64,000 nt of DNA from Pseudoxanthomonas mexicana. Its GTDB lineage: Bacteria; Pseudomonadota; Gammaproteobacteria; Xanthomonadales; Xanthomonadaceae. The notes under the pieces are model-generated. The model ran no database searches, was not told where the DNA came from, and was given only the letters and a program-made list of their open reading frames with translations. The translations under genes and the position numbers were made by a program. The number at the start of each line of letters is the position of its first letter. Position 1 is the stretch's first letter. The DNA lies in contig NZ_PDWV01000012.1 in assembly GCF_010093385.1 (NCBI RefSeq), positions 1 to 64,000 of the forward strand, written 5' to 3'. Below, in pieces: positions 36,548-55,159 of this stretch.

Positions 36548-36554
36548 GCGCGTC

Positions 36555-38610: not shown

Positions 38611-38624
38611 CTAACCGCCAACAG

Positions 38625-38903: not shown

Positions 38904-39844
38904 GGCCTCGGTTCCTCCGGTGGATCGGGATGGAGGTCCGGTATGGGCCCGGGCGACTCCGGTGACTCGACGGCCTGCACGCGCTCAATGAACCGCGCCA
39001 GCACATCGGACGAGTTGCCTTCGAGACGCAGCAGGTAAGTTGTCAAAGGCGGCACGCGCGATGCCAACGGCCGGGCCACGACGCCAGGCTCGCGATTGGC
39101 AGCAATGCGTGCGGCGCCGACCAGTCCCAGCGCGAAGCCGGCTGATACCAGGGCCATCATCAGGTCAGTGGATGCCACCCGCTCTGCAATCAGTGGCTCC
39201 ATATCCGCGCGGCGTAGCACCCGCTCAACGTGCTTGGCATGGCCTTCACATGCCTGTGGATCGCACAAGACCAACGGATAGCGCAAAAGTTCGTCTAAAG
39301 GAATGCGCTTATGTGCCAGTAGGGGGTGCCGAGCGGGCACTGCCACTATCAGCGCATCGCTCCAAGCGGGCACGGAAACGATGCCATTGCCAACTTCGTT
39401 GGACTGGGCGAACCCTACGTCATAGAGATCGTCATGTAGCCCTTTGATCTGCTGCGACAGCGGCACCTCGAAGAGGCGAATCTCGACCTCAGGTTCTTCT
39501 TGGCGACAAAGTACAAGCAAAGCGGATAGGCGCGACAGCGTGATACCGTCGGACAGAGCCACGCGCAGTTGCCTGTGAAAGCCATTGGCTGCCGCTTTCA
39601 CGCTGTCACGCGCTTGTTCCAAGGCAGCAAACACGCGACGCACGTGCTCAAGGAACAGATTCCCGGCTCGGGTTAGCCGCGTGCTGCGTGTGGTGCGAGC
39701 AAACAAAATCACGCCTAGTTCTTCTTCCAGTTCCTTGATGGCGCGCGATAGCGGCGACTGCTCGATATACAATCGCTCGGCGGCGCGGGCGAAGTGGAGT
39801 TCTTCGGCCACAGCCAGAAAGCAGCGCAAATGACGAAGTTCCAT
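38900..39844 (-). CDS. traR: LysR-type regulator TraR of the conjugation region
   Basis: A 314-residue LysR-family regulator. N-terminal helix-turn-helix MELRHLRCFLAVAEELHFARAAERLYIEQSPLSRAIKELEEELGVILFART, then a substrate-binding domain (VALSDGITLSRLSALLVLCRQEEPEVEIRLFEV) and a Pro/Glu-rich tail. The ATG at 39844 fits the family; an extension to 39919 is unlikely. In Tn4371-type elements a LysR-type gene is found in this position next to eexN and traG, so it is assigned to conjugation control rather than to the adjacent catabolic genes. Confidence 0.85.
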   Translation of the reverse strand: MELRHLRCFLAVAEELHFARAAERLYIEQSPLSRAIKELEEELGVILFARTTRSTRLTRAGNLFLEHVRRVFAALEQARDSVKAAANGFHRQLRVALSDGITLSRLSALLVLCRQEEPEVEIRLFEVPLSQQIKGLHDDLYDVGFAQSNEVGNGIVSVPAWSDALIVAVPARHPLLAHKRIPLDELLRYPLVLCDPQACEGHAKHVERVLRRADMEPLIAERVASTDLMMALVSAGFALGLVGAARIAANREPGVVARPLASRVPPLTTYLLRLEGNSSDVLARFIERVQAVESPESPGPIPDLHPDPPEEPRP

Positions 39845-39894
39845 ATCCCGTTCCTCACTAGGTGACTGGCAAAGCCTTGTGGTGATGCATGGCC

Positions 39895-40350
39895 GAGTGA
39901 CCTGCCCCAACGCGCGCATTGCCTTCGATAAGTTCTACTTCGTTGCCCACGCCACAAGCGATGTTGACTAGACGCCTCACCTTGGACAGAAGATCGAACC
40001 GGATCTCGAGGGCTCATGCTGGGCGTTGATCAGAGACCGCATCCGCCAGCCCGCCTTCCTACGGGCCGATCTGAGCAGCCTCATCACCCAAGTTGCGACC
40101 AAGCGCACGGCGCGCGAGCCTTTACCGAAAGCGGCTGCACGAGTTCCCCGTTCGGAAGCAGACCATCGTTGCGTGCGAGATGCGCACCCAGTGGTACACG
40201 ACCTTCATGCGCTCCGGGGTTGAGCCGAGGAGGGGCGCTTGTCTGATCCGCAAACATTTCGAGGACATCGTTGCCTAGACGCAAGTCCGTCAGACCAACG
40301 GCTTCTTCCATGCGGCTAAGCGCAAGGCGCGCGTCTACCCGCTTCGCCAC
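39895..40350 (+). pseudogene. Decayed ISL3 transposase remnant
   Basis: Conceptual translation gives pieces aligning in order with the ISL3 transposase at 33.6-34.5 kb: PNARIAFDKFYFVAHASDVD, LITQVATKRTARA, MRTQWYTTFMRSGVEPRRGACLIRKHFEDIVA, then after a stop TQVRQTNGFFHAAKRKARV. Several stops, a deletion and frame changes make it non-functional. It is in the opposite orientation to the intact-end ISL3 copy and borders the catabolic cargo. Confidence 0.8.
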
Positions 40351-40525
40351 CAGGTGAACCGTATTCTTCCTGAGCACAGGCAAGCACAACTTCGTTCAGA
40401 TAGGCCCGCAACTGCTTAACCCACGCAAAGTCGGAAAGAGTCTGTAGCGAAAGAGCCCTTGATTCACCTCCAGACTTGCTTGGGTAAACTGAAAATCCTT
40501 TCAAATTGGTATGAATTTCTCGCCG
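40351..40525. other. Non-coding stretch after the ISL3 remnant
   Basis: No gene can be supported. It includes the 3' flank of the aldehyde dehydrogenase gene and AT-richer sequence (CTGAAAATCCTTTCAAATTGG). Confidence 0.4.
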
Positions 40526-42265
40526 TCACCCACGCAGGGCGTTGACGAAAATCCTCGGCAGCTTGGTCCAGCTGGGTTTGAACTGGAAGTCGGTCAAGAG
40601 ACGGCCAATCACATCTTGCCGCCGGTTCGTGATGAACCAAGGTGGCCGAGGAAGGAGCGTTGGATGCAGTGAGAGCAGACTGCGAGGGAATGGTCGCCAT
40701 GGGGCGGATATGACGGTACGCTCCGTTCCTTCAAGCATGAACGAGTTATGTACCGTCCCAATACCAGATTGCGGATCGCGCGACGACCCTCCGGGAAATC
40801 CTCCCCAGGGGCAGGGTGCAAGCAGAAATCCCAATCCGGTCCAAGCATTCACGGCGATGGTGCCGTAGCGCAGCTTTTGAAGCAGTTCTTCGAAGCGTTG
40901 ACGACCGATCTCTCGCACAGTCTTGGGGTGAATCAGAATATTTGCCCCCAGGGTGCCGTACAAACGGTCATTAGCGTACGCAATGGCTGATTCAAGGTAC
41001 GACCCCGCATCTTTATATTCGAAGGACTTTATTGCTAACGCCGTGCCGAAGACTTCGTGCTGCGCCAGCCATGGCTCATCGCCCCGATCCATGTTCGCAA
41101 GAATGCACGCAGGCGCAAGCAGACCACGGTCGATCGCATCCGAACCTCCGGCGTGGGCGGCAAACTCTTCGATGCGCTGCTCGTTGCCAGGGTAGTAGGC
41201 CTCCCGCTGCCCGAAGCGCGACATGACATTGGACACAGCAGCCAAAAGTTTGTCCGTGTGTCGCCAGCCACGAGGCACGATCAAGGTTTGGCACGCCACG
41301 CAGTTAAAGCCGGAGTTGTGCAACTTGTGCGTTGCTATCTGTTCGGCCTGAAAGCGGATGTCCGCGTTCGACCACGGCCCGGGCACCACAATGGTGGGGC
41401 AGACTGCGCCCAGTTCGGACGTGATCTTTCGATGGTTCTTCGGTGTATTCGCGGCCTTGTTGCGTGCGCCTTCTTCTCCGATGCCCCAGACGATGGCATC
41501 GTGGGTGGCCTTTGCGCCGGTGATGTGGATTTCCTCTACCAGCGGATGCTCGCACAGGTAGGCACCCACGGCGCCATCGCCGCGAATGATGCGTAGCGCG
41601 TCGCATTCGATCAGGGGCCGCAGGGCTGCCTTGAGATAGTCGGTCAGGTAGTCGTTGACCGGATTCATCTTCAGCAGAACCACCTGGTTTTCGATAAACA
41701 GCTTCTGAAATGCATCGAGAGGCGAGATGGCCGCGATGTTGCCTGCCCCCAAGACTAGGGCCACCTTACCGCGCCGCTGTTCGGGAGGGATGTCATAGGC
41801 GACCGCCGCATGTTGAGCGAGACTGGCCTCGGAGATTCCCTTTTGCATCCAGACTTCAGCTGAGACCCCGGATAGGAGCAACCGATCCCAGATCGAATGG
41901 GGCAGAACTCTAACCGCCAATTGCCCATTCTTGAGGTGGCCCAAGGGCAAGTGCTCAAGATATTCCTTTCTATCAATGGCACCGAGTGTCTGCATCAACC
42001 CGTTGCAGGCGCCCATGAGGGCGTAGGGGCCGGAGAGCCATTCCTCCCCGGCCAGCGGCGATGCATGCGGAATGCGCTTCTTCCGGGCAGCTGTCTCCGC
42101 CCACCCCTGCGCAACCTGCATCAGCGCTGGCTTGATGCGGCCGAGAATAGCAATCCGATCGGCGACCGAGGTTTTTGCCCAGTGGTGCTTGGCCCCATCC
42201 AGTGCCTGCAAGTCCTGATCCAACAGGGCCTGAATATCGAAATTTGGGAGAGCGGCCCCCATCAC
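40526..42265 (-). CDS. Aldehyde dehydrogenase of the hydrocarbon-oxidation cluster (AlkH-like role)
   Basis: A 579-residue NAD(P)-dependent aldehyde dehydrogenase superfamily member, predicted to oxidise the aldehyde made by the adjacent alcohol dehydrogenase. The general-base Glu284 is in ITSELGAVCPTIVVPG and the nucleophile is Cys322 in NSGFNCVACQTL. It is about 80 residues longer than common ALDHs, with extra sequence at both ends (C-terminal LPRPPWFITNRRQDVIGR region). It departs from the usual ELGGK motif, so it belongs to a divergent subfamily. Overlaps the acyl-CoA ligase stop region by 4 bases (42262-42265). Confidence 0.85.
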   Translation of the reverse strand: MMGAALPNFDIQALLDQDLQALDGAKHHWAKTSVADRIAILGRIKPALMQVAQGWAETAARKKRIPHASPLAGEEWLSGPYALMGACNGLMQTLGAIDRKEYLEHLPLGHLKNGQLAVRVLPHSIWDRLLLSGVSAEVWMQKGISEASLAQHAAVAYDIPPEQRRGKVALVLGAGNIAAISPLDAFQKLFIENQVVLLKMNPVNDYLTDYLKAALRPLIECDALRIIRGDGAVGAYLCEHPLVEEIHITGAKATHDAIVWGIGEEGARNKAANTPKNHRKITSELGAVCPTIVVPGPWSNADIRFQAEQIATHKLHNSGFNCVACQTLIVPRGWRHTDKLLAAVSNVMSRFGQREAYYPGNEQRIEEFAAHAGGSDAIDRGLLAPACILANMDRGDEPWLAQHEVFGTALAIKSFEYKDAGSYLESAIAYANDRLYGTLGANILIHPKTVREIGRQRFEELLQKLRYGTIAVNAWTGLGFLLAPCPWGGFPGGSSRDPQSGIGTVHNSFMLEGTERTVISAPWRPFPRSLLSLHPTLLPRPPWFITNRRQDVIGRLLTDFQFKPSWTKLPRIFVNALRG

Positions 42266-43902
42266 TGCGTGCTCTCCGTGGTATTGCCGGTCAGGAGGCT
42301 GCCGTAGGCTTCGCGGAGCCTGTTCTTGAGCACCTTCCCCGTGCCACTGAGTGGCAGCACATCAACGAAGACGGCTTTGTCGGGGATCTGCCAGTCCGGC
42401 AGGCGTCCTTTGAAGCAGGCCAGAAGGTCCGCTTCGGACACATTCGCGCCTTCCTTTTTCACGGCGACCAGAACCGGTCGTTCGTCCCACTTCGGGTGGG
42501 GCACGCCGATGGCCGCCGCATTGGCGATGGCAGGATGTCCGATAGCGATGTTCTCGATCTCGACCGATGAAATCCACTCTCCACCAGACTTGATGATGTC
42601 CTTGGCGCGGTCGCGGATGACCATATAGCCGTTGACATCAAGCGTTGCTATATCACCGGTGTCGAACCAGCCATCACTGGTCAGCGCACTGGATTCGGCG
42701 CCGAAGTAGCTGCTGACGATCCAGTGCCCCCTGATCTGTAGTTTGCCCGGGGATTTGCCGTCGTTCGGCAAGACTGCGCCGCCGTCATCGACCACGCGCA
42801 GCTGAACGCCGTAGGGTGGTCGTCCCTGCCCCAGTCGCACTTCGCTCTGCCGCTGAGGATCAAGATGGATGTGGCGAGCCAGTGGTTGATTCAGGGTGCC
42901 CAGCGGGCTCGTTTCGGTCATGCCCCAGGCATGGATCAGTTCGACACCGAACTCGTCCCGGAACGCGGCGAACATCGACGGCGGCAGTGCCGCGCCGCCA
43001 ACGATGGTGCGTTTCAAGCTTTTGGGCTTGGTGCCGCGCGCCCTCAACGCCGCCAGCAGTCCCATCCAGATCGTGGGAACGCCAAGTGCCAGACCGACTT
43101 CCTCGTCGTCGATCAGGGTGGCGAGACTTGGGCCGTCAAGGTTCGGGCCAGGCAATACCAGTTTCGCTCCCTGCGCCGCCGCAATGTAGGGCACTCCCCA
43201 GGCGTTGACGTGAAACATGGGAACAACCGGCATGACAGCATCGCGGGCCGAAACGCCAATGCCGTCCGGGCTGTTGCCCGCCAACGCATGCAGCACCGTG
43301 GAGCGGTGGCTGTAAAGCACACCCTTCGGATGTCCCGTAGTGCCGGAGGTGTAACACAACGAAGAAGGTAGATCCTCGTCAATGCTCGGCCACGGGTAGT
43401 CGGCGTCGCCCGAGGCGACCACCTCGTCGTAGAACTGCAAGCCATCCAACATGCCCGATGCCTCCTCATCGCGTGGCCCCATGAGAATGACATGTTTGAC
43501 GGTGCTCAATGCCGACCGAAGCTTGGCCACAATGGGCAGAAAGGTCCGGTCGATGAACAGCACCTGATCATCGGCGTGGTTGACGATGTAGATCAGGGTT
43601 TCGGCGGACAGGCGCGGATTGACTGTGTGGCACACCATGCCCGCGCCGGAAACGCCATAGTAAATTTCCAAATGTCGCCGATTGTTCCATGCAATGGTCG
43701 CGCAACGCTCGCCCGATTGCACGCCCAGCTTGGCCAGCGCTGACGACAGGCGTCGCGCATTGATCTCGACTTGACCCCAGGTCGTGTGTTCGATCCCGCC
43801 CGTGGTGTTGACGGAAACGACTGGCGTATCGGCATGGTAACGCGCAGCATGGGCGATGAGACTGGAGACGAGCAAAGGCTCGCGCATCATTTTTCCGAGC
43901 AT
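42262..43902 (-). CDS. Medium/long-chain acyl-CoA ligase (AlkK-like)
   Basis: A 546-residue AMP-forming ligase, close to the length I recall for AlkK. It activates a carboxylic acid to its CoA thioester. Motifs: LCYTSGTTGHPKGVLYSHRST (P-loop-like), AWGMTETSPLG, DGWFDTGDIATLD and the C-terminal KSGGEWISSVEIENIAIGHPAIANAAAIGVPHPKW with a late catalytic lysine in LSGTGKVLKNRLRE. A Shine-Dalgarno-like GAAAG precedes the ATG. In the pathway it follows the aldehyde dehydrogenase step, feeding beta-oxidation. Confidence 0.9.
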   Translation of the reverse strand: MLGKMMREPLLVSSLIAHAARYHADTPVVSVNTTGGIEHTTWGQVEINARRLSSALAKLGVQSGERCATIAWNNRRHLEIYYGVSGAGMVCHTVNPRLSAETLIYIVNHADDQVLFIDRTFLPIVAKLRSALSTVKHVILMGPRDEEASGMLDGLQFYDEVVASGDADYPWPSIDEDLPSSLCYTSGTTGHPKGVLYSHRSTVLHALAGNSPDGIGVSARDAVMPVVPMFHVNAWGVPYIAAAQGAKLVLPGPNLDGPSLATLIDDEEVGLALGVPTIWMGLLAALRARGTKPKSLKRTIVGGAALPPSMFAAFRDEFGVELIHAWGMTETSPLGTLNQPLARHIHLDPQRQSEVRLGQGRPPYGVQLRVVDDGGAVLPNDGKSPGKLQIRGHWIVSSYFGAESSALTSDGWFDTGDIATLDVNGYMVIRDRAKDIIKSGGEWISSVEIENIAIGHPAIANAAAIGVPHPKWDERPVLVAVKKEGANVSEADLLACFKGRLPDWQIPDKAVFVDVLPLSGTGKVLKNRLREAYGSLLTGNTTESTQ

Positions 43903-43916
43903 TTTTCTACTTTCTT

Positions 43917-44030
43917 TCAGAATTGGTATTTGAGGCCGACGTCGACAACCAGAGGATTGAGGCGAATGGAGACTGAAGTAGACGGTCCACCAAGCGCAAG
44001 CATCGTGCCAGCGGCCTTTAAGAGGTTTTT
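43917..44030 (-). pseudogene. 3' remnant of an OmpW/AlkL-like outer-membrane protein gene
   Basis: On the minus strand, between the alcohol dehydrogenase and ligase genes, 37 codons read through to a stop and end ...SIRLNPLVVDVGLKYQF. This is the form of a last beta-strand of an outer-membrane barrel (alternating hydrophobic residues, final Phe) and resembles OmpW-family ends. An in-frame TAG lies just upstream, so only the tail survives. In the GPo1 alk system an OmpW-type porin, AlkL, imports alkanes; the assignment here is by inference from position and tail only. Confidence 0.5.
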
Positions 44031-44061
44031 CTATTGGTATGCAAGAAGTAATGCACCAGAT

Positions 44062-45738
44062 TTACCTGAGGAGTGCGCTCTCGTATGCTTGGCGTTCGTT
44101 CTTTCGGGAAATCTGGGCTGGGTGTCCATGTGCTCGTTTAATGAGGTCCGCAGCCCTCTCGGCGATCATGATCGTTGGCGCGTTGGTGTTGCCGCTGATC
44201 AAAGTCGGCATGATGGAGGCATCGACGACACGCAAACCTTGCAGACCATGTACCTTCAGCTCCGCATCGACCACGGCCATTGGGTCCACACCCATCTTGC
44301 AGGTGCCGACCGGGTGGTAAATGGTGTCGGATCGATCTCGAATGAGCTGGCCCCATTGCGCATCACTCATGCCATCGGTAACGCCGAACAATTCGCGCCC
44401 ACGGTACTTGGCCAAGGGGGATGCCAGCATTATCTCTCGTGTGGCCTTGGCCCCTTGGACCAGGAGCTTCACGTCACGCTCGTCAGACAGGAAGCGCGGA
44501 TCAATTCCTGGGTCGTCCAGCGGGTTGGGTGATTGCAAGAACACCTCGCCACGCGAGTAAGGGCGCAGATTGCAGACGTGGCACGAGAAACCATACCCAA
44601 CATGCAGTTTGCGCGCGTGGTCGTCCACGATCGAGATCACGAAGTGCAGTTGCAAATCCGGCCGATCCACGTCAGGGGCGCTCTTGAAGAATGCGCCGCC
44701 CTCGGCAAATGGGGTGGCAAGCATGCCGCTGCCATCCTTGCGCCAACTGGAAATGTGGCCCAGCATGTCCACTGACCCTTTGAGTCCGATGCCGAAGTTG
44801 TCAGTGTCCTGGGAGGTGTAGGCCAGAATGAAATCCAGGTGATCCTGCAAGTTCTGGCCAACACCGGGCAACTCATGCACCATGCGGATGCCGTGATGGG
44901 TGATGTCTTCCGGGCGCCCGACGCCGGACAGCTGAAGAATCTGCGGTGAACCAAAGGCGCCGGCAGCCAGAATGACCTCCCGCTTGGCCCTGACCTCGTG
45001 TTCGGCACCGCCGGCATGGTAGGCCACGCCCACGGCGCGCTTGCCCTCGAAGATGATCCGGCTGGCGCGGGTATTCGTCTTGATCGTGAGATTCGGCCGT
45101 TGCCCCCGCAGAGGATGCAAGTATGCGGCTGCAGCGGAGCAACGCTCGCCTCGGCGGGCAGCATCGTGGAATTGCGTGACCTGATACAAGCCAACGCCTT
45201 CGTTGTCTCCATCATTGAAAGCGGCACGAAACGGAATGCCGCGCTGCTTGGCTGCCTCAATGAACGCAAGCGTGATCGGCCTGGGGCTACGCTGCTCGGA
45301 CACATGCAAAGGTCCATTCCCGCCATGGAGCTTGCTCGCTCCACGCTCGTTGTTCTCTGCCTTCAGGAAATACGGCAGCACCGAGTTCCAGTCCCACCCT
45401 TGACACCCCAGGTCGGCCCAGTGATCGTAGTCCTGACGCTGTCCACGGACATAGAGCATGGCGTTGATGGCCGAAGATCCGCCAAGGGCGCGGCCCCGCG
45501 GTTGATAGCCCCGCCGACCATTGAGGTTCGGCTGAGGTGCGGTGTTGAATGCCCAGTTATTGATCTTGCCCTTGCCTGGCATCATGACCACCGTTCCAGC
45601 TGGCATGCGGACGACCAATGAGTCGCCTTGTCCGCCCGCCTCAAGCAGGCAAACACTGATGCGGGAGTCTTCGCTCAGCCGCGAGGCCAAGGTGGCGCCG
45701 GCAGAGCCGCCGCCTAAGATGATGTAATCGAAATTCAT
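44062..45738 (-). CDS. GMC-family alcohol dehydrogenase (AlkJ-like)
   Basis: A 558-residue FAD-dependent oxidoreductase, the length I recall for AlkJ, predicted to oxidise the primary alcohol from the hydroxylase to an aldehyde, passing electrons to the respiratory chain. N-terminal FAD motif FDYIILGGGSAGATLASRLSED, the GMC signature RALGGSSAINAMLYVRGQRQDYD, and the C-terminal active-site region YHPVGTCKMG and SGNTNAPTIMIAERAADLI are present. It lies 66 bases after the fused hydroxylase gene and is presumably cotranscribed. Confidence 0.92.
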   Translation of the reverse strand: MNFDYIILGGGSAGATLASRLSEDSRISVCLLEAGGQGDSLVVRMPAGTVVMMPGKGKINNWAFNTAPQPNLNGRRGYQPRGRALGGSSAINAMLYVRGQRQDYDHWADLGCQGWDWNSVLPYFLKAENNERGASKLHGGNGPLHVSEQRSPRPITLAFIEAAKQRGIPFRAAFNDGDNEGVGLYQVTQFHDAARRGERCSAAAAYLHPLRGQRPNLTIKTNTRASRIIFEGKRAVGVAYHAGGAEHEVRAKREVILAAGAFGSPQILQLSGVGRPEDITHHGIRMVHELPGVGQNLQDHLDFILAYTSQDTDNFGIGLKGSVDMLGHISSWRKDGSGMLATPFAEGGAFFKSAPDVDRPDLQLHFVISIVDDHARKLHVGYGFSCHVCNLRPYSRGEVFLQSPNPLDDPGIDPRFLSDERDVKLLVQGAKATREIMLASPLAKYRGRELFGVTDGMSDAQWGQLIRDRSDTIYHPVGTCKMGVDPMAVVDAELKVHGLQGLRVVDASIMPTLISGNTNAPTIMIAERAADLIKRAHGHPAQISRKNERQAYESALLR

Positions 45739-45804
45739 AAGAGCCCACGAAGGAGCCGATGGCTCCGAATTGAAAGAAGGGAGTGGAAGGAGCAGCGAGC
45801 GTGT

Positions 45805-48066
45805 TCAGCCAGCCGCCAATTCCTTGTTCCATTGGCGTGGGTCGTAGAAACGCAATGCCTTCAGGCCACTTTTCTGGTTTGCACGCAGCGCCAACTCCCT
45901 CTCCTCTGGCGTGGCGTAGTGCCGATCCCACTCCATGAGCTTGGGGATCATCATTCGCTGCCAAAGCGGCGGAATCATCGTCAGCAGTATCGTGGTAAGG
46001 TAGCCAGCGGCCATTGTCGGGGCCTCCGGCAAGGGCATCAAGTTCTGGTAAGGCACCTCGCCTTGGGCATGGTGGTGCGAATGCCGACTTAGATTGAACA
46101 TGGCCCAGGAACTCATTCTGGCATTGGTATTCCATGAGTGCCGTAGTTGTACAGCCTGATCGGGAGCGCGCACCATGCCGTAATGCTCCATGTAGTTCAC
46201 GATTTCGAGCAGGGATTTTCCCCACAGCGCGCTGCCGGTAAATCCAAGCACGCCGATCCATCCCGCCATCCAGTAGGCGATCGCCACGAGCACCGCACTC
46301 ATGAGCAATCCGCGGATATAGGCGTTGCGCAAGGAGATCACCGGAAGATGCTTGCGCTTGAGGCGTTCGGCTTCGATGCGCCAGGCGCTGGCGTTGCCGC
46401 GAATGGTGGAGATTACGATGTGCTGATACACATTGCGTCCTCGCGGGGCCGTGGCCGGATCATGCTCGGTCGACACATAGCGGTGATGCCCGTAGACATG
46501 CTCGATGGCGAATCCCACGTCGAAGCTGAAAGACAGCAGCCAACGGCCAATGAACATCGAGACCGGCTCCCAAGTGCGATGCGTCAATTCGTGCGCCGTG
46601 ATCGTTCCCAGCACGCCAATCACGAAGCCAGTCAATATGCCTCCAGTGAGGTGGTGCCAAAAGCCCGTCGCCTCCCGGGCGGCCAGAACGTCATAGTGGG
46701 TGAGATGGGCTACCCATGCGCCGAATCCCAACGGATCACCGGAAGAAAGCGTCCAGATGTAGGCAAATACGATCAGCGCCACCAGGGGCAGGATGAACCA
46801 CAGTTGCACCGTGAGAATCCACGGTGATTTGTATTTTGGCGTTCGGGTATCGTTGCCCAACAGCGCATCACCGCCAACGTAGAAGGCGAGAAAGCCGAGC
46901 AGCCCCAAACTGGTGTAGGCGCCGCCCGCCAGAATGGAGACCAAAGCACCGATCCCCGCCCCATGCAAAAGGAAGAACTTCAGATAGTCCAAGATATTGG
47001 CTGGCACACGCTCAACGGTAGGCAAGCCGACAGCGCCGTAGAAGCCGGTGTGGAGCTTGGGCGCCTGATCGACGAAGCGGTCCGCGTGCAAATTCGTGTC
47101 TGCAATACCACGCTGGCGCAGGACGGCGATGGCCGAGTCGATCATGGCCGGCGGGCCGCACAGATAAGCCGACGTGGCGCCCCCAAGCAGTTCTGGAATG
47201 GGCTCCGTCACCAAGCCAGTGCGCCCGTCCCAGGGCGATGAAGGGTCGGCCTCGGACAGAACCGGCACGAACCGGAAGTTCGGCCAATCCTTTTCGTAGG
47301 CTGCCATCTCGTCGAGCGCGTACAGATCCTTCTGGCTCCGAGCGCCAAACAGCACCGTCACCGGCCGCGTGTCGCCCGAGCGCTTCATGTCTTGAAGCAT
47401 CGCGAGGATGGGCGCCAAGCCGCTGCCCCCAGCCACCATAAGGACTGGCCCCCGGCCCGGGCGCATGTAAAAGTGACCGCCGGGGCCGCGCACGGCGACC
47501 GATTCGCCCACATGCGCCTGGTCCACGAGATGCCCGGACACCCGCCCCCCCGGCACACGGCGCACCGTGAAACTCACTTGGCGATCATTGCCAGGTGCGG
47601 CCGAGAATGAATAGCTGCGAGGAGCATCCCACATCGAAGTCAGCGTGACCTCTGCAAACTGGCCGGCACGATAGCGAATCGGCGTGTCCAGTTGAATGTC
47701 GATTCTCGCGATGTCGTGAGTCAGCATTTGCTTGCCGACGATCACGCCCTTGACCGGAGGGCCATCGATCGCACCCTCCCGATCCAGCTCGATCTTCACA
47801 TCGCTGCGCAGGCGGCTCTGGCAGGCCAATATGAACCCGTCGGAGATTTCCCTCTCCGTCAGCAGGTACGCCGTCTCGGTCAGTTCGTCAACCTTGCCGC
47901 TCTTGAGCTTGCACTTGCAAGTCCCGCAGCCGCCGACACGACAGATGGAGGGAATGTTGATGTTCTGGCGTTGCGCTGCCTCCAGCAAAGTTTCATCGGG
48001 CTCGACGGTGATGGTCTGCCCGTTTATCTCCGCTTGGTGCAAGCTTCTTCCGTGAAGAAAATTCAT
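45805..48066 (-). CDS. Ferredoxin-reductase-AlkB three-domain fusion hydroxylase
   Basis: A 753-residue apparently self-contained membrane hydroxylase. Residues about 1-95 form a plant-type [2Fe-2S] ferredoxin (Cys42, Cys47, Cys50, Cys82). Residues about 100-335 form a ferredoxin-NAD(P)+ reductase-type domain (FAD motif RSYS at 150-153, MVAGGSGLAPI at 210-220, CGPPAMI at 303-309). Residues about 355-745 form an AlkB-type di-iron hydroxylase with membrane helices and the His motifs HELTH (492-496), EHVYGHH (522-528), NYMEHYG (624-630) and RHSHHH (661-666). AlkB enzymes normally need separate rubredoxin and reductase; here electrons can run NADH-FAD-[2Fe-2S]-di-iron in one chain. The reductase half resembles XylA-type partners of XylM. 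Substrate (n-alkane, alkyl-aromatic or terpene) is not shown. Confidence 0.93.
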   Translation of the reverse strand: MNFLHGRSLHQAEINGQTITVEPDETLLEAAQRQNINIPSICRVGGCGTCKCKLKSGKVDELTETAYLLTEREISDGFILACQSRLRSDVKIELDREGAIDGPPVKGVIVGKQMLTHDIARIDIQLDTPIRYRAGQFAEVTLTSMWDAPRSYSFSAAPGNDRQVSFTVRRVPGGRVSGHLVDQAHVGESVAVRGPGGHFYMRPGRGPVLMVAGGSGLAPILAMLQDMKRSGDTRPVTVLFGARSQKDLYALDEMAAYEKDWPNFRFVPVLSEADPSSPWDGRTGLVTEPIPELLGGATSAYLCGPPAMIDSAIAVLRQRGIADTNLHADRFVDQAPKLHTGFYGAVGLPTVERVPANILDYLKFFLLHGAGIGALVSILAGGAYTSLGLLGFLAFYVGGDALLGNDTRTPKYKSPWILTVQLWFILPLVALIVFAYIWTLSSGDPLGFGAWVAHLTHYDVLAAREATGFWHHLTGGILTGFVIGVLGTITAHELTHRTWEPVSMFIGRWLLSFSFDVGFAIEHVYGHHRYVSTEHDPATAPRGRNVYQHIVISTIRGNASAWRIEAERLKRKHLPVISLRNAYIRGLLMSAVLVAIAYWMAGWIGVLGFTGSALWGKSLLEIVNYMEHYGMVRAPDQAVQLRHSWNTNARMSSWAMFNLSRHSHHHAQGEVPYQNLMPLPEAPTMAAGYLTTILLTMIPPLWQRMMIPKLMEWDRHYATPEERELALRANQKSGLKALRFYDPRQWNKELAAG

Positions 48067-48103
48067 CGCAATTGTCTCCTAATGAATGTTTTTTTCCTTT
48101 TTT

Positions 48104-48133
48104 ATTAGACTTCGCCACCACTTTCTGTCGCAA
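48104..48133 (-). promoter_or_regulatory. Candidate promoter of the hydroxylase operon
   Basis: On the minus strand TTGCGA (48128-48133) and TCTAAT (48104-48109) are 18 bases apart, 38 bases before the ATG, which is preceded by the strong ribosome binding site TTAGGAGACAATTGCG. The segment between this and the divergent araC-type gene would hold activator sites. Confidence 0.5.
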
Positions 48134-48287
48134 GCGCATAAACTGACAAACATGGTGCATTTCTTGCCAAGCACCTGCCGCTACGTGTAGGATCGTTTTG
48201 ATAGTCATCAGAGGAAGAAGGCTGAGGAGCGTGTCGGACTCCTCAGGGCGGCCACCGGCCGGCACAAGAACATGGAGCGAGACAACC

Positions 48288-49310
48288 GTGAACCCAAAAA
48301 CTGTTCGAGTCACCTACCTGCGGCAAATTGCAGATCAAGCGGCTGAACTGGGCGTGGATACCGTGGCGTGGCTGGCCATTTCCGACCTCAAGCAAGATGA
48401 TCTTGCCGATGCGTCGGCGGTAGTTGCCGTCGAAAAGTTTGGAGAGCTGATCACCCGCGCCGTCAGTCTGTCGCGTGAGACGGGCTTCGGGGTATTGGCT
48501 GGGCGTCGTTTGCTTACAGCAACCCATGGTGTCCTCGGCATGGCGGCTGCGGCAAGCCGCAGCATCCGTGAAGCCATGCAAATCGTCGAGCGTTTTGTCT
48601 GCATCCGAACGGAGGCTATCAGTATTCATACCCGCGAGGTAAATGGAAGTCTGGAGGTCTGGTTTGAACCGGCGATCGGTCTGGGTTCTGCAAGCAACAC
48701 GGTGACGGAAATCGCGATGGTTGCAGTCAAAAATATCGCCGACGACATATTTCTGAGTCGCAGTGCCTGCAATATGGCTTACTTTCAATTTCCTGAGCCG
48801 CCTCATGCGGCACTGGCACGCGGCGTTTACGGCTGCGCAGTTCGATACAATCAGAAATGGTCAGGTTTATCTTTTGATATTTCTGCTGCCGAAGAAGTCA
48901 CCCAGAAATACGATCCATTGGTTCTAACAGAGGCAGTACGCTTCTGCGTCGAAGAGTTAAATGAAACTGGAGATAACAGGAGCGCAGGCTCGAAATTGGA
49001 GAAAATTGTTCTAGAACGGCTTCCGCCAATTCCTCATCTCACCGTATGTGCACGGCTGCTGAGCACGACGCCTCGGACACTTCATCGGCGCTTGATCGAA
49101 GAAGGAACCACTTACCGTGAAATAGTGGAATCAATTAGGCATCGCATGGCGTTAAAACTGCTCAGAAAAGGGTCTTCCATCAAAGAAGTGACCTATTTCT
49201 TGGGCTATGCGGACATCGCCAGTTTCAGGCGCGCATTCCGGCGCTGGGAAGGTATGGCGCCGTCGGATTGGTCGGCAAGAGTGCAAGAGCCGGCGGGTGA
49301 ATCCAGGTAA
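48288..49310 (+). CDS. AraC-family transcriptional activator of the hydrocarbon cluster
   Basis: A 340-residue regulator with an N-terminal arabinose-binding-type ligand domain as in OruR/AlkR-like regulators (TYLRQIADQAAELGVDTVAWLAISDLKQDD; YFQFPEPPHAALARGVYGC) and a C-terminal AraC double helix-turn-helix (LSTTPRTLHRRLIEEGTTYREIVESIRHRMALKLLRKGSSIKEVTYFLGYADIASFRRAFRRWEGMAPSDWSA). The GTG at 48288, with GGAGCGAG before it, is preferred to an upstream in-frame ATG at 48198. Divergent from the fused hydroxylase gene, as expected for its activator. Base composition is visibly less GC-rich than the ICE core. Confidence 0.88.
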   Translation: MNPKTVRVTYLRQIADQAAELGVDTVAWLAISDLKQDDLADASAVVAVEKFGELITRAVSLSRETGFGVLAGRRLLTATHGVLGMAAAASRSIREAMQIVERFVCIRTEAISIHTREVNGSLEVWFEPAIGLGSASNTVTEIAMVAVKNIADDIFLSRSACNMAYFQFPEPPHAALARGVYGCAVRYNQKWSGLSFDISAAEEVTQKYDPLVLTEAVRFCVEELNETGDNRSAGSKLEKIVLERLPPIPHLTVCARLLSTTPRTLHRRLIEEGTTYREIVESIRHRMALKLLRKGSSIKEVTYFLGYADIASFRRAFRRWEGMAPSDWSARVQEPAGESR

Positions 49311-49376
49311 TTGATGGCTCTTGGAATGTGAAGGATATGCTTGATGACACACCAGAAAAGTTCGTGCGACTGAACT

Positions 49377-49403
49377 ATATTCGGCCAAATTTTTGCCGAA
49401 TAT
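49377..49403 (+). terminator. Terminator after the araC-type gene
   Basis: ATATTCGGC-(9 nt)-GCCGAATAT followed by TTTGATC: a perfect 9-bp stem, 66 bases after the stop, at the end of the cargo module and ahead of the convergent relaxase gene. Confidence 0.7.
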
Positions 49404-49512
49404 TTTGATCAAGTGTAGAGCCAGCAGATGCCCCGTGCGCGTGCGATGCTTTCTTGATCGAAACATTGCAGGCCTTCGGTATCGAATGGAAAAAAACGTT
49501 TTGTCCATCGTC

Positions 49513-51516
49513 TCAAACGATAGCAGGCCCGCGTTTACGCCCGATCTCCCAACATACCCCGCTACCGCGCACTATGGCCGCAAGCGGCTGCCCCAGGCGC
49601 TGTTCAATTACCGGTTTCCAGGGCACCAGGCTGAATCCTATGCCATCGTCCAGCATCGCGTAGCGCCCACTGGCGAGCATGACGCTGCGGCGGTAGATGC
49701 CGGCCACGCGCTGCCCGTCGGCCACCGGGCGATGCTCCAGGCCGGTTTCGCCGGCAATGTCCTTCGCGGCCTGCGCCAGTTCCCGGTTGCGCAGCATGCC
49801 CAGCAGGTTGCGCGCCAGGATCACACGCTGCCCGCGCCGCTCGGCCAGCCCCTGTTCGGCCAGGAAGTCGGCGCGCTGCTGCATCGCCTGCTTGGCCTCC
49901 GCGCCAAAGCCCAGGTCGCCCAGGCCCGAGCCGCCGCCGATCAACTGCTGGTCGAGCCAGGTGGCCCCGATCACGCGTGCCTGCCGCTCGATGGGCAGGT
50001 GCGATTTCAGCTCCACGGCCACGCCGCCCAGGCGTTGCGCGTCGTAGCGCTGGCCCTGCTCGGGCAGGTCGCCCGGCACCTTCCATAGCCCTTCCGCCAC
50101 ACGCTCCACGATGCCCGCCCGGCGCAGAGCTTCCAGGCGGCGGACATGGGCCGCCACAACTTCCTGCGGGTCGCGGCCCGGTACGACCTGGCCCTGCGCG
50201 ATGGCGAGGTGGTGGTCGGTGCGGTACAAGCCATCGCTCGCCAGCGCGGCGATGTTCCTGTCGGCCGCGCGCACATCGGCCGATCCCTTCACCTCCACTA
50301 CGGCCCCGGTCGGATAGTTCGCCAGCTCGTCGCGGGCGTTGAGCGCGACGTAGTGGGCCTTGCCGTCCACGCCGTCTATGACCAGATAGCCCCGGTCGCG
50401 CAACTCGTCGGCCAGCCCCTTCGCGGCCACGCGGCCGAGGATGGTTCGGCCGTCGTCCCCCGGCTCGAACACCGCCAGCTCGCGCGGCTCGCCGCGCATG
50501 GCCCGCTGCATCGTGCGGATGATGTCGCCGCGCTCGCCCAGGGCGCACAGGGTCTTCTCTGCATCGGCATGGACGGCCCAGGTGCCCGGCCGCGTCTCGT
50601 CGGCCAGGCCCAGGCGCTGCAAGCGTTGCAGGCGGCCGATCAGCAGCAGGCGCCGGCGCTGCAAGCGGGGTTCGTTGAGCCGTTCGGTATGCACCAGGCC
50701 ATCGCCGCCGGCCTCGCCCATTTCTCGTTTGAGGGTGCGATCCAGGCTCGTCCACCGCTCTTGCTCCACCTCGCGCTGCAAGGTCTGCTGGATCTCCAGC
50801 TCGGTGCGCGGCCCCAGCCATTCGGTCGCCAGCTCGGCGGCGCGGTGGCGGAAGCCAACGGCGATGTAGTCGCCCGCGATGATGAGGTCTTTGCCCGTGT
50901 CGTCGCGCCCGCGCACGACGATGTGCGTGTGCGGGTTGTCGGTGTTCCAGTGGTTCACGGCCACCCAATCGAGGCCCGTGCCCAGGTCGGCCTCCATACG
51001 CTGCATCAGGTGCCGCGTGTAGGTGCGCAGGTCTTCCAGCTCCGCGCCATCCTCGGGCGAGAGGATGAAGCGGAAATGGTGCCGGTCGTCGGCGCAGCGT
51101 TCCTTGAAGGCGTCGAGGTCGGCCATGTCTGTCTGCGGCCTATAGGCTTGGCCCGGCTCGCCGTCGCGACCCACGCCATCGCGCTCGATGTAGCGCAGGT
51201 GCTTGGCAAGCGACTGCGGGCTGGCCCGCTGGTGATTCACCAGCAGCGTCTTGATGGTCACGCGCCGGGACATCGGCGTCAGCTTCGCGCCCGCAAAGCG
51301 CGCCGCCGTATGGCCGCGCCCCAGGCGCGATCCGGGCCGTTGGCCGGTGCCGCCCGCCGAGCCAGGACGGCGCACCGTGGACTTGCCGCTGCTGGCCTTG
51401 CCCGTCTGCTTGAGCACCTTGGAAACGAAGCTCTGCCCCTGGCCCTTGCCCCGGTTCTTCGGGGCCTTTGGAGGGTTCGGGTGCACGCGGAAATCGTCAT
51501 CGCGGCGGTCGCTCAT
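49513..51516 (-). CDS. rlxS: Relaxase/mobilisation nuclease (VirD2/TraI-type, DUF3363)
   Basis: A 667-residue relaxase expected to nick the transfer origin and pilot the DNA strand. It begins MSDRRDDDFRVHPNPPK; a basic, Gly/Ser-rich N-terminal stretch precedes the relaxase core with RRVTIKTLLVNHQRASPQSLAKHLRYIERDGVGRDG, FRFILSPEDGAELEDLRTYTRHLM and the three-His motif TDNPHTHIVVRG. A long DUF3363 C-terminal half follows. The frame to 51642 is longer than needed; ATG 51516 fits the family. Confidence 0.92.
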   Translation of the reverse strand: MSDRRDDDFRVHPNPPKAPKNRGKGQGQSFVSKVLKQTGKASSGKSTVRRPGSAGGTGQRPGSRLGRGHTAARFAGAKLTPMSRRVTIKTLLVNHQRASPQSLAKHLRYIERDGVGRDGEPGQAYRPQTDMADLDAFKERCADDRHHFRFILSPEDGAELEDLRTYTRHLMQRMEADLGTGLDWVAVNHWNTDNPHTHIVVRGRDDTGKDLIIAGDYIAVGFRHRAAELATEWLGPRTELEIQQTLQREVEQERWTSLDRTLKREMGEAGGDGLVHTERLNEPRLQRRRLLLIGRLQRLQRLGLADETRPGTWAVHADAEKTLCALGERGDIIRTMQRAMRGEPRELAVFEPGDDGRTILGRVAAKGLADELRDRGYLVIDGVDGKAHYVALNARDELANYPTGAVVEVKGSADVRAADRNIAALASDGLYRTDHHLAIAQGQVVPGRDPQEVVAAHVRRLEALRRAGIVERVAEGLWKVPGDLPEQGQRYDAQRLGGVAVELKSHLPIERQARVIGATWLDQQLIGGGSGLGDLGFGAEAKQAMQQRADFLAEQGLAERRGQRVILARNLLGMLRNRELAQAAKDIAGETGLEHRPVADGQRVAGIYRRSVMLASGRYAMLDDGIGFSLVPWKPVIEQRLGQPLAAIVRGSGVCWEIGRKRGPAIV

Positions 51517-51964
51517 GGCTGTGCTCCCTGCAAGCTCTGGCGTGTCCTGTCGTGCGAAGCACGCGGACATGCCTGCATTGGCGCGGGCCTCGCGCCATAC
51601 GCGGCACGGCGGCGAAGCCGCTCCGTGCCGCGCCACCCCCACGTGCAGACTGGCTTTCGACGCGGCCCGGTGCCGCGTCCTTTTGTCTTGCCTTCCGCCT
51701 TTGCCCTTCGCTGTCGCTCCGGGCAGCGGCGGCCCGGTGGCGCTGCTGCGCGTGCAGCCAGCGCGCCGGCGAACGCGGCGACGGCCATAGGCCGGGCGCG
51801 TTCAAGGCAAGACGCCTGCACATGGGAAGGCAGCGCGAAGTGCGGCGCCCGATACGAAGGATCGGCGCTCGCACTGCATGCGCGATGACACGCGGAAAGC
51901 CACGGGATCGACACGCCCGATGGCACGAGAAGATGCACGGCAACGTGCAGCGAATCGGCGGCCA
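51517..51964. other. Gene-free region upstream of the relaxase; candidate oriT
   Basis: About 450 bases with no convincing gene between relaxase and traF genes. It holds inverted repeats: GTCGTGCGAAGCACG near 51,548-51,563 nested in TGTCC...GGACA, and GCGGCACGG (51601-51609) with CCGTGCCGC (51623-51631). Transfer origins usually lie beside the relaxase gene and contain such repeats; no nick sequence could be recognised. Confidence 0.4.
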
Positions 51965-52564
51965 TCATGGGCGGGACTCCAGCCACACCGGACGGGCGAT
52001 GCCGATCACGGCGGATGCGCTGACCGGGCCGAAATACCGGCTGTCGAACGATGCCGGATTGGTCACGCTCAACAGGAACAGCTCGCCCGGTTCGAGGCGT
52101 CGGCAAAGGTGCAAAGACGGCAGCGCCCGACCCATCCGGTCGGCAGGCAGCACGGCGGCCGAAGGCATGCCGTCGATGCGTACCTGACCTGCGGCTATGC
52201 AGACGTGTTGCGGCGCGACTGCGCCCACACGTTTGAGCAGCGGAACGCGCGTCGGCAGGTAGCCGCGCTGCGCAGCGAGCGCGGCGGCCGTAGCCGGAAG
52301 CGGCACCAGCACGATGCTGTCCACGGACAAAGGACGTGGCAGCGAGGTGGTGTGCGAATCGAGCGGTTCGATGCGATACCAGCCGACCGCCACGCTGTCG
52401 GACGGGTTGTAGGTCAGACGCGGCAGCGGCGACACGAAAGCCGCCCAGGCCAGCGAAGCGAAGCCGATGGCGGCCAGTGTCGCCACGACGATGCGAGCGC
52501 GCAGGCGTGAGCGAGGACGCGGCGCCACGTCGAGCGCCTTGGGTGTGGTGGTCGGGGCGGTCAT
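51965..52564 (-). CDS. traF: TraF-type signal peptidase (S26 family)
   Basis: A 199-residue S26 peptidase with one N-terminal membrane helix (IVVATLAAIGFASLAWAAFV) and the catalytic region YNPSDSVAVGWYRI (Ser) and LLKRVGAVAPQHVCI (Lys) plus FDSRYFGPV. In RP4, TraF processes and cyclises the TrbC pilin, here encoded at 29,424-29,816. The ATG at 52564 overlaps the DUF2840 stop by 4 bases. Confidence 0.9.
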   Translation of the reverse strand: MTAPTTTPKALDVAPRPRSRLRARIVVATLAAIGFASLAWAAFVSPLPRLTYNPSDSVAVGWYRIEPLDSHTTSLPRPLSVDSIVLVPLPATAAALAAQRGYLPTRVPLLKRVGAVAPQHVCIAAGQVRIDGMPSAAVLPADRMGRALPSLHLCRRLEPGELFLLSVTNPASFDSRYFGPVSASAVIGIARPVWLESRP

Positions 52565-53106
52565 GGCAGCACCTCCCCGGCCAGCCAAGCAGCGTGCCGC
52601 CCGGTGGTGTATTCGGGCAGCGCAAGGCGAGCCGCAAGACGGTTGCCCAGCGTGCGCCAGTACGCGGGCGACACGTCGATGACGGCGATGCCCAGCGCCT
52701 CGATGCCGTCGATGCGCTCCAGCACGGCGCGCACGTTGGCATCGCCTTCGGTGTGCAGCAGCAGGCGCGCGCCCGGCTGCACGCCGGGGATGCGCTGTGC
52801 CGCGTCCAGCGGTGTGCAAGCCTGCATCACCATGAGCTGCCAGCGGATCGTGCCGTAATCGTTGGCCTGCCAGCGGATGCGGCAGAACATCGCGCCCGGC
52901 AGGAACACCGCGCAGCGCCGCCAGTCGTCCAGGCGCAGCGTGCGCGCCGGTTCACCAAAGCGCAGGTAGAGCTTGAAGCGATGTTCCAGGTAGGCCAGCG
53001 AAACGCGCGTCAGCGGCACGTTGCCGGCCTGGCCGGCGAGTACCGCGGGATGTAGCGACGGTGCAGCCGTGGCCGCGCCAGCGGCGGGCGAAGCGGATGC
53101 GGTCAT
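52561..53106 (-). CDS. DUF2840 domain protein
   Basis: A 181-residue protein of the DUF2840 family, standard between traF and parA in Tn4371-type elements. Marks include TRVSLAYLEHRFKLYLRFGEPARTLRLDDWRRCAVFLPGAMFCRIRWQANDYGTIRWQL. No motif gives a function. 4-base overlaps on both sides. Confidence 0.85.
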   Translation of the reverse strand: MTASASPAAGAATAAPSLHPAVLAGQAGNVPLTRVSLAYLEHRFKLYLRFGEPARTLRLDDWRRCAVFLPGAMFCRIRWQANDYGTIRWQLMVMQACTPLDAAQRIPGVQPGARLLLHTEGDANVRAVLERIDGIEALGIAVIDVSPAYWRTLGNRLAARLALPEYTTGRHAAWLAGEVLP

Positions 53107-53387
53107 GGTGTGTTCTCCCTGCGGTGTTCTGGAAACTCTCGCTCCAGCAGGCCGCGCAGCAGGTCGGCCACGGTCACGCCTTGCGTGAAGGCCGACACCT
53201 TGATGCGCGCCCGCATGGCGGGTGTGATGTCGAGGGTCAGGCGCGCGGTGTAGAGGTCGCCTTTGCCCAGCGCATCGGCATCGCCCTGGCGAATCCACGC
53301 CTCGGCGTGTGGATTCGCAGGAGGACGTGCGCCGATGCCAACGCGCTTGCCCGTGCGTTTGGTGTTGGGTGGCTGCTGCGCTGTCAT
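53103..53387 (-). CDS. Small ribbon-helix-helix protein next to ParA
   Basis: A 94-residue protein with a basic N-terminus and a C-terminal ribbon-helix-helix (YTARLTLDITPAMRARIKVSAFTQGVTVADLLRGLLEREFP). Directly follows parA with a 4-base overlap, suggesting a ParB-like centromere-binding or autoregulatory partner (inference). Confidence 0.85.
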   Translation of the reverse strand: MTAQQPPNTKRTGKRVGIGARPPANPHAEAWIRQGDADALGKGDLYTARLTLDITPAMRARIKVSAFTQGVTVADLLRGLLEREFPEHRRENTP

Positions 53388-54022
53388 GTCGGCCACCGCA
53401 GCAGTTCGTCCACCAGGGCGGTGATTTCGCGGGCGGCGGCGCTGTCGGGCGCTGTCTCGCGTGCGAGCCGGCCAGCGGCCACGCTGTCGGCGAACACGAT
53501 GCGCTGATGCACTTCCGAACGCAGCGCGGGCAGCGGCTGTTCGGCCAGCGATTGCCGCGCCTCGCGGCCGATGATGGTGGTGCTGACGCGCCGGTTGATG
53601 ATGAAGGCCGCGCGCAGCGCAGGCCTGAACACCTGCGCCTCGCGGATCAGCGCCACCATCTCGGCGCTGGCCCAGAGGTCGTAGGGGCTGGGCTGCACGG
53701 GGATCAGCACGCGCTCGGCCGCCAGCAGCGCGGAGCGCGCCAAGGCGGCGATGCGCGGCGGGCCGTCGATGATGACGTGATCGGCCCGCCTGGCGAGTTC
53801 TGGCGCTTCCTGATGCAGCGTTTCGCGGGCAAGGCCCACGGCGCTGAACAGCCGTGGCAAGCCTTGCTGGCTTCTGCGCTGCGTCCAGTCCAGCGATGAG
53901 CCTTGCGGGTCGGCATCGAGCAGCACGACATGCTGCCCGCGCAGCGCCAGCTCGCCGGCGATGTGTGTGGCGAGCGTGGTCTTGCCGACGCCGCCTTTCT
54001 GGTTGAGCAGCGCGACGATCAT
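53384..54022 (-). CDS. parA: ParA-family partition ATPase
   Basis: A 212-residue ParA/MinD-type ATPase with deviant Walker A KGGVGKTT at residues 9-16, Walker A' LLDADPQGSSLDW and the HVIIDGPPRIAALARSALLAAERVLIPVQPSPYD stretch. Short type without N-terminal helix-turn-helix, as in small plasmid and ICE partition modules. Lies next to iterons and repA. Confidence 0.94.
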   Translation of the reverse strand: MIVALLNQKGGVGKTTLATHIAGELALRGQHVVLLDADPQGSSLDWTQRRSQQGLPRLFSAVGLARETLHQEAPELARRADHVIIDGPPRIAALARSALLAAERVLIPVQPSPYDLWASAEMVALIREAQVFRPALRAAFIINRRVSTTIIGREARQSLAEQPLPALRSEVHQRIVFADSVAAGRLARETAPDSAAAREITALVDELLRWPT

Positions 54023-54198
54023 GGCGTGGCCCTCCTGACTGGAAAGCCAAGCTTTGCCTGCCGTGCGAAACGCTGTTCGCCGTGCCGTTTGATGGTTGTC
54101 CACCGAAACGGCGCGCTTCTACTAAAAGTTATGTATTTCTTGTTAGGGAAGTTAGAGGGGACGCAAACCCGCGCCGTTATTGGCTTTCCGGCGCTTTC
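54023..54198. other. parA leader / start of the replication-control region
   Basis: No gene. The AT-rich segment CTACTAAAAGTTATGTATTTCTTGTTAGGG is a candidate promoter for parA on the minus strand and for DNA melting near the iterons. Confidence 0.45.
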
Positions 54199-54264
54199 GT
54201 ACTCCTGATAGCACGATAGGCGTACTCCCGATAGCACGATACCTGGTACTCCTGATAGCACGAG
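54199..54264. repeat. Three iterons between parA and repA
   Basis: Three direct copies of a 19-bp sequence, GTACTCCTGATAGCACGAT, begin at 54199, 54222 (one change, C for T) and 54246 (last base changed). Repeat starts are 23 and 24 bases apart, about two helical turns. Their place beside repA and an AT-rich tract fits a RepA-binding origin. Confidence 0.85.
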
Positions 54265-54287
54265 GCCGTCCACACCTTTTCCCGCAG

Positions 54288-55145
54288 TTATCCCCGTGCC
54301 GTGTGCAGCACGGGCCGGAAGGTCAGCAGTTCTTGTCCGTCGTCCGGCATCCGCTCGATGCCCAGGACGTAGCCGGGCAGCGACTGCCGCGCCACCAGGG
54401 CGCGCAGGTCGTAGGCGAAGTCCGAGAAGCGCGCCGCGCTGCCCGACTTGCGGTGCAGGTGCTTGAAGTCGAATTGCCAGCCGTGTTCCTGCCGCCCGCC
54501 GTGCTTGCGCACCAGGCGGTACAGCCAGCGTTCGATGCCGCCCTTCAAGCGGAAATAGGCCGGGTCGATGGTCAGCACCAGGGCGGCATCGAGCACGCCC
54601 GCATAGAACCAGTCCGGCAGGATCAGTTCGATGCCCAGCGGCACGCCGCTGGCATCGGCCAGTTCCTTCCACTCGTTGATCCACGAGAAGCGATGCAATC
54701 GCCTTCCCGTGGTTTCGCGGATGGACGTGGCCACCGTGGTCGATTGCAGCCGGTCGAGCGCGGCTTTCAGCCGCAGGTAGTCGTTGAGGGACGTGCCGCG
54801 CCCGATGAAGCGCAGGATCTCGTAGGGCGTGGCGCGTATCCAGCGCGAGGGGCGGATGCCCGCGTCGCGCGCCTCCACGATCTGCGAGGCGGCCCATATC
54901 AGCACGTCGGCATCCCATATCGTTGCGATGCCATGCTCGGCCGTGCCTTCCACGCGGATGGTGATGCCGCCGGCGCGAAAGTCGATCGGCGCCGTGCGCC
55001 GCGACTTCGCCAGCGAGAAGAACGGAAAGGCCATCAAGTCCTGGCTGTCGCGGGGTGCCATGTCGCCCGGCAGCGCGCGGAACAGGTCGAGCTGTTCGCG
55101 CTGCGGCAAGGCTTGCCCTGGCGGGCTGGACATGGCGACGGCCAC
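54288..55145 (-). CDS. repA: Replication initiator protein RepA
   Basis: A 285-residue RepA-type initiator (replication initiator protein A family). Typical segments are PRDSQDLMAFPFFSLAKSRRTAPIDF, IATIWDADVLIWAASQIVEARD, RATPYEILRFIGRGTSLNDYLRLKAALDRLQSTTVATSI and DPAYFRLKGGIERWLYRLVRKHGG. Iterons lie 24 bases beyond its stop. It suggests the excised element can replicate. The extended frame to 55200 is not needed. Confidence 0.92.
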   Translation of the reverse strand: MAVAMSSPPGQALPQREQLDLFRALPGDMAPRDSQDLMAFPFFSLAKSRRTAPIDFRAGGITIRVEGTAEHGIATIWDADVLIWAASQIVEARDAGIRPSRWIRATPYEILRFIGRGTSLNDYLRLKAALDRLQSTTVATSIRETTGRRLHRFSWINEWKELADASGVPLGIELILPDWFYAGVLDAALVLTIDPAYFRLKGGIERWLYRLVRKHGGRQEHGWQFDFKHLHRKSGSAARFSDFAYDLRALVARQSLPGYVLGIERMPDDGQELLTFRPVLHTARG

Positions 55146-55159
55146 CCACGCGCCAGCGA

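Follow-up and report, generated by a model that had tools for sequence, protein, structure and literature searches.

A three-domain ferredoxin–reductase–AlkB fusion, probably a self-sufficient alkane hydroxylase, in the cargo of a mobile element of Pseudoxanthomonas mexicana

The window analysed here, a 64,000-nucleotide stretch of Pseudoxanthomonas mexicana DNA (positions 1 to 64,000 of contig NZ_PDWV01000012.1, in a genome assembly of 115 contigs), carries on its minus strand a single gene (45805..48066) that joins a [2Fe-2S] ferredoxin, an FAD/NAD(H) reductase and a di-iron membrane hydroxylase. The 753-residue frame starts at an ATG preceded, on inspection of the sequence, by a Shine-Dalgarno-like AGGAG, and the open reading frame list and translation contain no internal stop. 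Pfam matches follow one another in the order Fer2 (residues 14–86, 2.9e-18), FAD_binding_6 (108–200, 5.6e-12), NAD_binding_1 (210–311, 1.4e-20) and FA_desaturase (470–680, 7.7e-28). The protein comprises a ferredoxin domain (about residues 1–100; 47767..48066, minus strand) with Cys 42, 47, 50 and 82, a reductase domain (about 101–335; 47062..47766, minus strand) with the motifs RSYS 150–153, GGSG 213–216 and CGPP 303–306, a linker (residues ~334–358, within the same minus-strand frame) between the reductase and hydroxylase parts, and an AlkB-type hydroxylase domain (about 341–753; 45808..47046, minus strand) with ten iron ligands. With the linker set apart, the three parts take up residues 1 to ~95, ~102–333 and ~359–753. 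An initial annotation of this DNA had described one intact 753-residue frame of the same three parts; translation and Pfam agree, and the motifs lie where it had placed them: C42, C47, C50 and C82, RSYS 150–153, CGPPAMI 303–309 and the histidine motifs HELTH 492–496, EHVYGHH 522–528, NYMEHYG 624–630 and RHSHHH 661–666. Modelling of the full chain on a shallow six-sequence alignment gave a mean pLDDT of 43.3 and a pTM of 0.29, at which domain contacts are unreadable.

The same single-frame, three-domain architecture occurs in 12 other loci (L009–L014, L016, L023 and L028–L031), so the fusion is neither a chance product nor an assembly error. Codon comparison with five orthologues (L009–L012 and L014; L013 was aligned and left out of the measurement) gave dN/dS values of 0.05–0.24 in each of the three parts, and the 23-residue linker is kept as well (dN/dS 0–0.08 in three comparisons; dS saturated in two).

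On the same strand follow a GMC alcohol dehydrogenase gene (44062..45738; Pfam and NCBIfam matches, and 44% identity to residues 1–381 of the pCP7-41 plasmid GMC protein), an AMP-binding acyl-CoA ligase gene (42262..43902) and an aldehyde dehydrogenase gene of divergent sequence (40526..42265), for which we suggest AlkJ-, AlkK- and AlkH-like roles, respectively, and beyond them a LysR-type regulator gene (38900..39919, minus strand). Divergent from the fusion gene is an AraC-type regulator gene (48198..49310, plus strand; listed from a TTG, a provisional start). In 20 of 26 loci a divergent AraC-type gene neighbours the hydroxylase or fusion gene; two of the other six (L065 and L066) are truncated at a contig end. 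Among the 13 three-domain loci, which include the short contigs L061 (5.6 kb) and L066 (4.5 kb), six have a gene matching the window's GMC dehydrogenase beside the fusion, and five also have the acyl-CoA ligase and aldehyde dehydrogenase. The operon is like the alk cluster of pCP7-41 (alkane 1-monooxygenase, rubredoxins, aldehyde dehydrogenase, GMC dehydrogenase, CoA ligase and OmpW) but is without rubredoxins; the aldehyde dehydrogenases of the two are distant (24% over 331 columns). Between the aldehyde dehydrogenase and LysR genes, at about 40090–40410, lies an apparent ISL3-type transposase remnant, placed through matches of L009 and L010 to the ISL3 gene at 33612–33901 (64%). In the Polaromonas plasmid this place is taken by an OmpW (AlkL-like) gene, for which a search at 1e-6 found no counterpart in window positions 37001–52000; the window operon may have lost its porin.

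These genes, with the LysR gene near one end, form an alk island of about 11 kb (38348..49332) that is lower in G+C than its surroundings and has 97.5% DNA identity to a Tepidicella locus (L009) and 96.8% to a Stenotrophomonas locus (L010, there from 38611), two genera of different classes. The island sits between traG and the RlxS relaxase gene of an integrative conjugative element, the in-window part of which spans 20816..64000 with provisional ends. The element has trb/traG transfer genes (21333–33353, traG itself at 31320–33353), the RlxS relaxase (49513–51642), a replication initiator (54288–55145), a ParB-like gene (59058–61109) and, beyond the window, an integrase (contig positions 67271–68521). 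We take it to be of Tn4371 type, a family with an integrase, RlxS relaxase, traG/trb and rep/par genes and short direct repeats at its ends; all of these are present here, the ends being provisional. The 8-base word ATGAAAAA, looked for because it presumably marks elements of this kind, occurs three times on the two strands of the 75-kb contig, at 20816, 26682 (reverse) and 68649; the copies at 20816 and 68649 are the putative ends and bound an element of about 48 kb. The alkane-to-acyl-CoA gene set is complete on a mobile element, and as the island is also about 97% DNA-identical in two other bacteria, the whole alkane ability seems to move at once.

In the Stenotrophomonas locus the island runs almost straight into the traG side, so that the transposases at 33576–38495 of the window appear to be an extra load. 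The longest direct repeat in a general search, a 14-base word at 20372 and 67177, fits neither element end. The surroundings on the Polaromonas plasmid (L014) are the same as in the window element: traG follows the LysR gene, and L014 8611–8754, beside the AraC gene, encodes 48 residues that match the RlxS relaxase tail. Cargo near the integrase end includes a small HTH_20 helix-turn-helix regulator (63118–63459; the ArsR model falls just under its cut-off) and an SBF-family transporter (contig positions 63914–65047), which together are possibly arsenic-related.

Two alkane 1-monooxygenases, 8f6t and 8sbb, are the solved chains that the hydroxylase half matched at E up to 0.001, and among NCBIfam models it had no hit with E up to 0.1. 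Compared with 8f6t (35% identity over 254 aligned residues), it keeps all ten iron ligands of FtAlkB, nine His and one Glu (H492, H496, H523, H527, H528, E627, H628, H662, H665 and H666), as mapped from the ligands given in excerpts of PMC10113152 with a three-residue offset between paper and chain numbering, found by fitting, and with 8f6t assumed to be the paper's protein. At the Fe2 carboxylate position the alignment has Glu in the window fusion and in all four AlkB rows, and Gln in all six rows of the XylM group (L036, L037, L047, L051, L052 and L054). This one letter is a possible marker of the XylM group versus AlkB, drawn from the present alignment. Identity to four XylM-type proteins is 27–30% over query residues 19–394 of 413. 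The initial annotation had proposed a phylogeny of this domain, and we ran it against AlkB and XylM groups, leaving out repeats of the same locus and a 296-residue partial hydroxylase frame (L035). In the resulting tree of 39 rows, three clades stand out: the four AlkB rows (100/100), the XylM group on a long branch (100/100) and, outside both, 23 rows that include the window's hydroxylase (100/99). The tree is rooted with the AlkB rows, a small and long-branched set, and the program flagged a risk of long branches being drawn together. Given the glutamate at the carboxylate position and a clade separate from the XylM group, we regard the iron site as AlkB-type, and the label first given to the domain is upheld by the presence of all ten FtAlkB ligands.

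The electron-donor half (residues 1–335) points elsewhere: its best NCBIfam match is BenC (240 bits, 3.8e-71, under the model cut-off of 430), its best solved chain is 1krh, the reductase of benzoate 1,2-dioxygenase, and its identity to four XylA-type reductases is 39–43% (41% for XylA of pWW0). Judged from sequence, an AlkB-type iron site and a XylA/BenC-type donor are combined in one fusion. The [2Fe-2S] cysteines and the FAD/NAD motifs are intact in the alignment, and Pfam found no rubredoxin domain in the protein. Searches of the genome itself returned one rubredoxin match, on another contig, by which an outside donor for the hydroxylase is conceivable, no P450 match, and three FA_desaturase matches, of which one is the fusion and the other two resemble lipid desaturases by eye. 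One fused relative (L031 1462–3723) has a very divergent reductase domain (38%, branch 2.8) with altered FAD/NAD motifs, its hydroxylase being 57% identical.

Compared with canonical AlkB, the fusion has the same ten iron ligands, but its donor is a fused [2Fe-2S] ferredoxin in place of rubredoxin and rubredoxin reductase, and in the tree its hydroxylase does not group with the four AlkB rows. It shares the donor type with the XylM and XylA pair of pWW0, and its hydroxylase is 30% identical to XylM over most of the length; in pWW0, however, the two proteins come from two genes with the hydroxylase first, and XylM has Gln at the Fe2 carboxylate and belongs to a separate clade.

Fusions of this type have been published, as the initial annotation had suspected in saying that genome surveys had noted them and that this one might not be the first. 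Excerpts of the review PMC8918992, which reports Nie 2014 and Williams 2021 on the subject, describe a three-domain ferr_ferrR_AlkB class, one member of which was expressed and active and did not epoxidise alkenes, and an AlphaFold model of a class member that places the redox parts close together; its abstract names two classes of fused AlkB, with rubredoxin and with ferredoxin plus reductase. A legend in the structure paper PMC10113152 lists three-domain AlkB in Leptospira, Limnobacter and Polaromonas, and we infer that the Polaromonas plasmid protein is the one meant there. The window protein has the domain order of this class on one chain, and we found no difference in kind from the Polaromonas protein. 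Parts of PMC12903215 (2026) describe ORF41 of an integrative conjugative element in P. putida EM2-4, a protein of 754 residues (oxidoreductase 1–333, alkane monooxygenase 334–754), the mutants of which lose growth on octane; the strain grew on C8 and C10 alkanes and not on C6 or C12–C16, and section 11 of the paper cites other three-domain enzymes for which NADH alone suffices and C10–C12 are preferred.

By length (753 versus 754 residues), two-part split, gene set (alkB, alkJ, alkH and alkK genes lie on the EM2-4 element too, according to the same excerpts) and element type, ORF41 appears to be equivalent to the window fusion. The abstract of PMC12903215 calls one part a desaturase, whereas in the window protein the FA_desaturase match is the hydroxylase and the other half is ferredoxin and reductase; if the EM2-4 protein is the orthologue that it appears to be, that part of the description may need correction. 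The early judgement that the function of such fusions was little described does not survive the active expressed member of PMC8918992 and the octane-growth mutants of PMC12903215, as far as their excerpts go, and the novelty that it implied falls accordingly. The window protein is one more such enzyme, on a mobile element. What is new here is the AlkB glutamate together with a XylA/BenC-like donor, a subfamily with split and two-domain forms, and an operon carried as cargo by a ~48-kb element.

We consider it very probable that the fusion is a three-domain alkane 1-monooxygenase of the published ferr_ferrR_AlkB class, probably self-sufficient, that uses NADH for the terminal hydroxylation of medium-chain n-alkanes. 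NADH would reduce the FAD of the reductase domain, and electrons would pass one at a time from FAD through the [2Fe-2S] ferredoxin domain to the membrane domain, whose di-iron site would use O2 to hydroxylate the terminal carbon (C8–C10, possibly up to C12). The alcohol would then be converted to acyl-CoA by the downstream dehydrogenases and CoA ligase, and the divergent AraC-type protein probably turns the operon on. The electron path and the preference for NADH follow from the known reductase family, and the predicted substrate range is carried over from relatives, which disagree in part. The self-sufficient membrane hydroxylase that the initial annotation had envisaged is, as a prediction from sequence, still the likeliest mechanism. 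An alkane hydroxylase that runs on NADH within a single chain would be of use in producing alcohols from alkanes, as no separate electron carriers need be supplied.

A methyl hydroxylase of the xylene or cymene type, acting on aromatic or terpene side chains, would also account for a XylA/BenC-like donor half and for a hydroxylase that can be aligned with all four XylM-type proteins. We consider it unlikely, because the glutamate ligand is Gln in every XylM-group row and not in the window, the XylM group stands apart on its long branch, the operon with its GMC alcohol dehydrogenase and acyl-CoA ligase resembles alk clusters and not the xyl neighbours of pWW0, and octane growth requires a fusion of the same type in the excerpts of PMC12903215. 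It is improbable, too, that the fused donor contributes little or is a mere vestige, with a host rubredoxin actually feeding the hydroxylase: the genome does hold one rubredoxin match, and the introduction of PMC12903215 suggests dependence on host donors, but the cofactor motifs are intact, purifying selection on the ferredoxin and reductase is comparable to that on the hydroxylase, and section 11 of that paper cites relatives with NADH as their sole need.

There is very little to recommend a fatty-acid desaturase fusion, the name given in the abstract of PMC12903215 to a protein of the same type. The C-terminal Pfam model is indeed called FA_desaturase and 'fatty acid desaturase' is the annotation given to the Polaromonas orthologue, but the solved relatives of this domain are alkane 1-monooxygenases, and residues 1–333 match ferredoxin and reductase models and no desaturase. 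The existence of relatives with split neighbouring genes might suggest that assembly or sequencing had joined two genes by mistake, which is scarcely credible: the same join in 12 other loci, with the linker kept in frame, refutes it, and in excerpts of PMC12903215 such a fusion was confirmed by re-sequencing and gave a polypeptide of ~83 kDa on expression.

Relatives were sought in genomes and plasmids. A scan of genome contigs returned five loci, in Tepidicella (97%), Stenotrophomonas (94%), Hydrogenophaga (86%), Rugamonas (76%) and Microbulbifer (60%). In a plasmid collection, at least 80% of the query was covered at a single place in each of 14 records: the protein of the Polaromonas naphthalenivorans CJ2 plasmid is a one-frame fusion (79.7% identical over 99%), plasmid psoil36-7 of Hydrocarboniclastica marina has a split pair (52% overall), and the remaining 12 have two annotated genes, hydroxylase and ferredoxin-reductase, beneath the match. 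Four overlapping samples of 398, 395, 397 and 369 genomes, searched at a match threshold of 1e-80, contained 24 distinct genomes with a match, the window's own included. Seven of these have the three-domain frame, three a ferredoxin-hydroxylase without reductase, one (L027) a copy cut by a contig end and 13 separate genes or single parts; the samples were drawn evenly from larger groups, so these counts are not prevalences. The Hydrocarboniclastica locus (L015) has two genes where the window has one frame (the halves being 44% and 63% identical): beyond the reductase's own stop there are two further in-frame stops before the hydroxylase begins at a fresh ATG. It shares the divergent AraC-type gene with the window. 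In L017 the reductase and hydroxylase genes are 29 bases apart, and in both of these loci the reductase precedes the hydroxylase, as in the fusion and in the reverse of the pWW0 order.

The 13 fused rows require three changes on the tree of hydroxylases; constraining them to a single clade was not rejected (AU p 0.231, the group having been chosen after the tree was seen and with L027 left free). In a reductase tree, built without repeats and without the other reductase frames of the window's own genome (L002–L004, L007 and L044), the fused rows form one side of a low-support branch (50/4), and a window clade of 15 rows stands apart from the four XylA-type proteins (99/100). A single origin of the fusion is possible. 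The chances seem to us about even that these proteins make up a distinct subfamily, with an AlkB-type iron site (Glu) and a XylA/BenC-type donor, in which a series runs through split genes, three-domain fusions and two-domain forms without reductase; if so, this natural series of forms would let the effect of fusion on coupling and substrate range be tested.

The two-domain form, of which we found no mention in the open-licence literature searched, lacks the reductase and keeps the four cysteines and all ten ligands in the alignment. A reductase domain like that of the window was not found at 1e-6 in the three two-domain loci L062–L064, and Pfam showed none in the called frames covered (8 of 12 in L063 and 2 of 11 in L064). 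Such proteins would either have dropped the reductase or never had one, and would draw electrons from a separate host reductase. The [2Fe-2S] ferredoxin-hydroxylase fusions themselves are 521–537 residues long (L024 1441–3054, L025 1174–2739 and L026 1177–2778); all three come from one genus of Xanthomonadaceae, the window's own family, and fall inside the same subfamily as the fusion.
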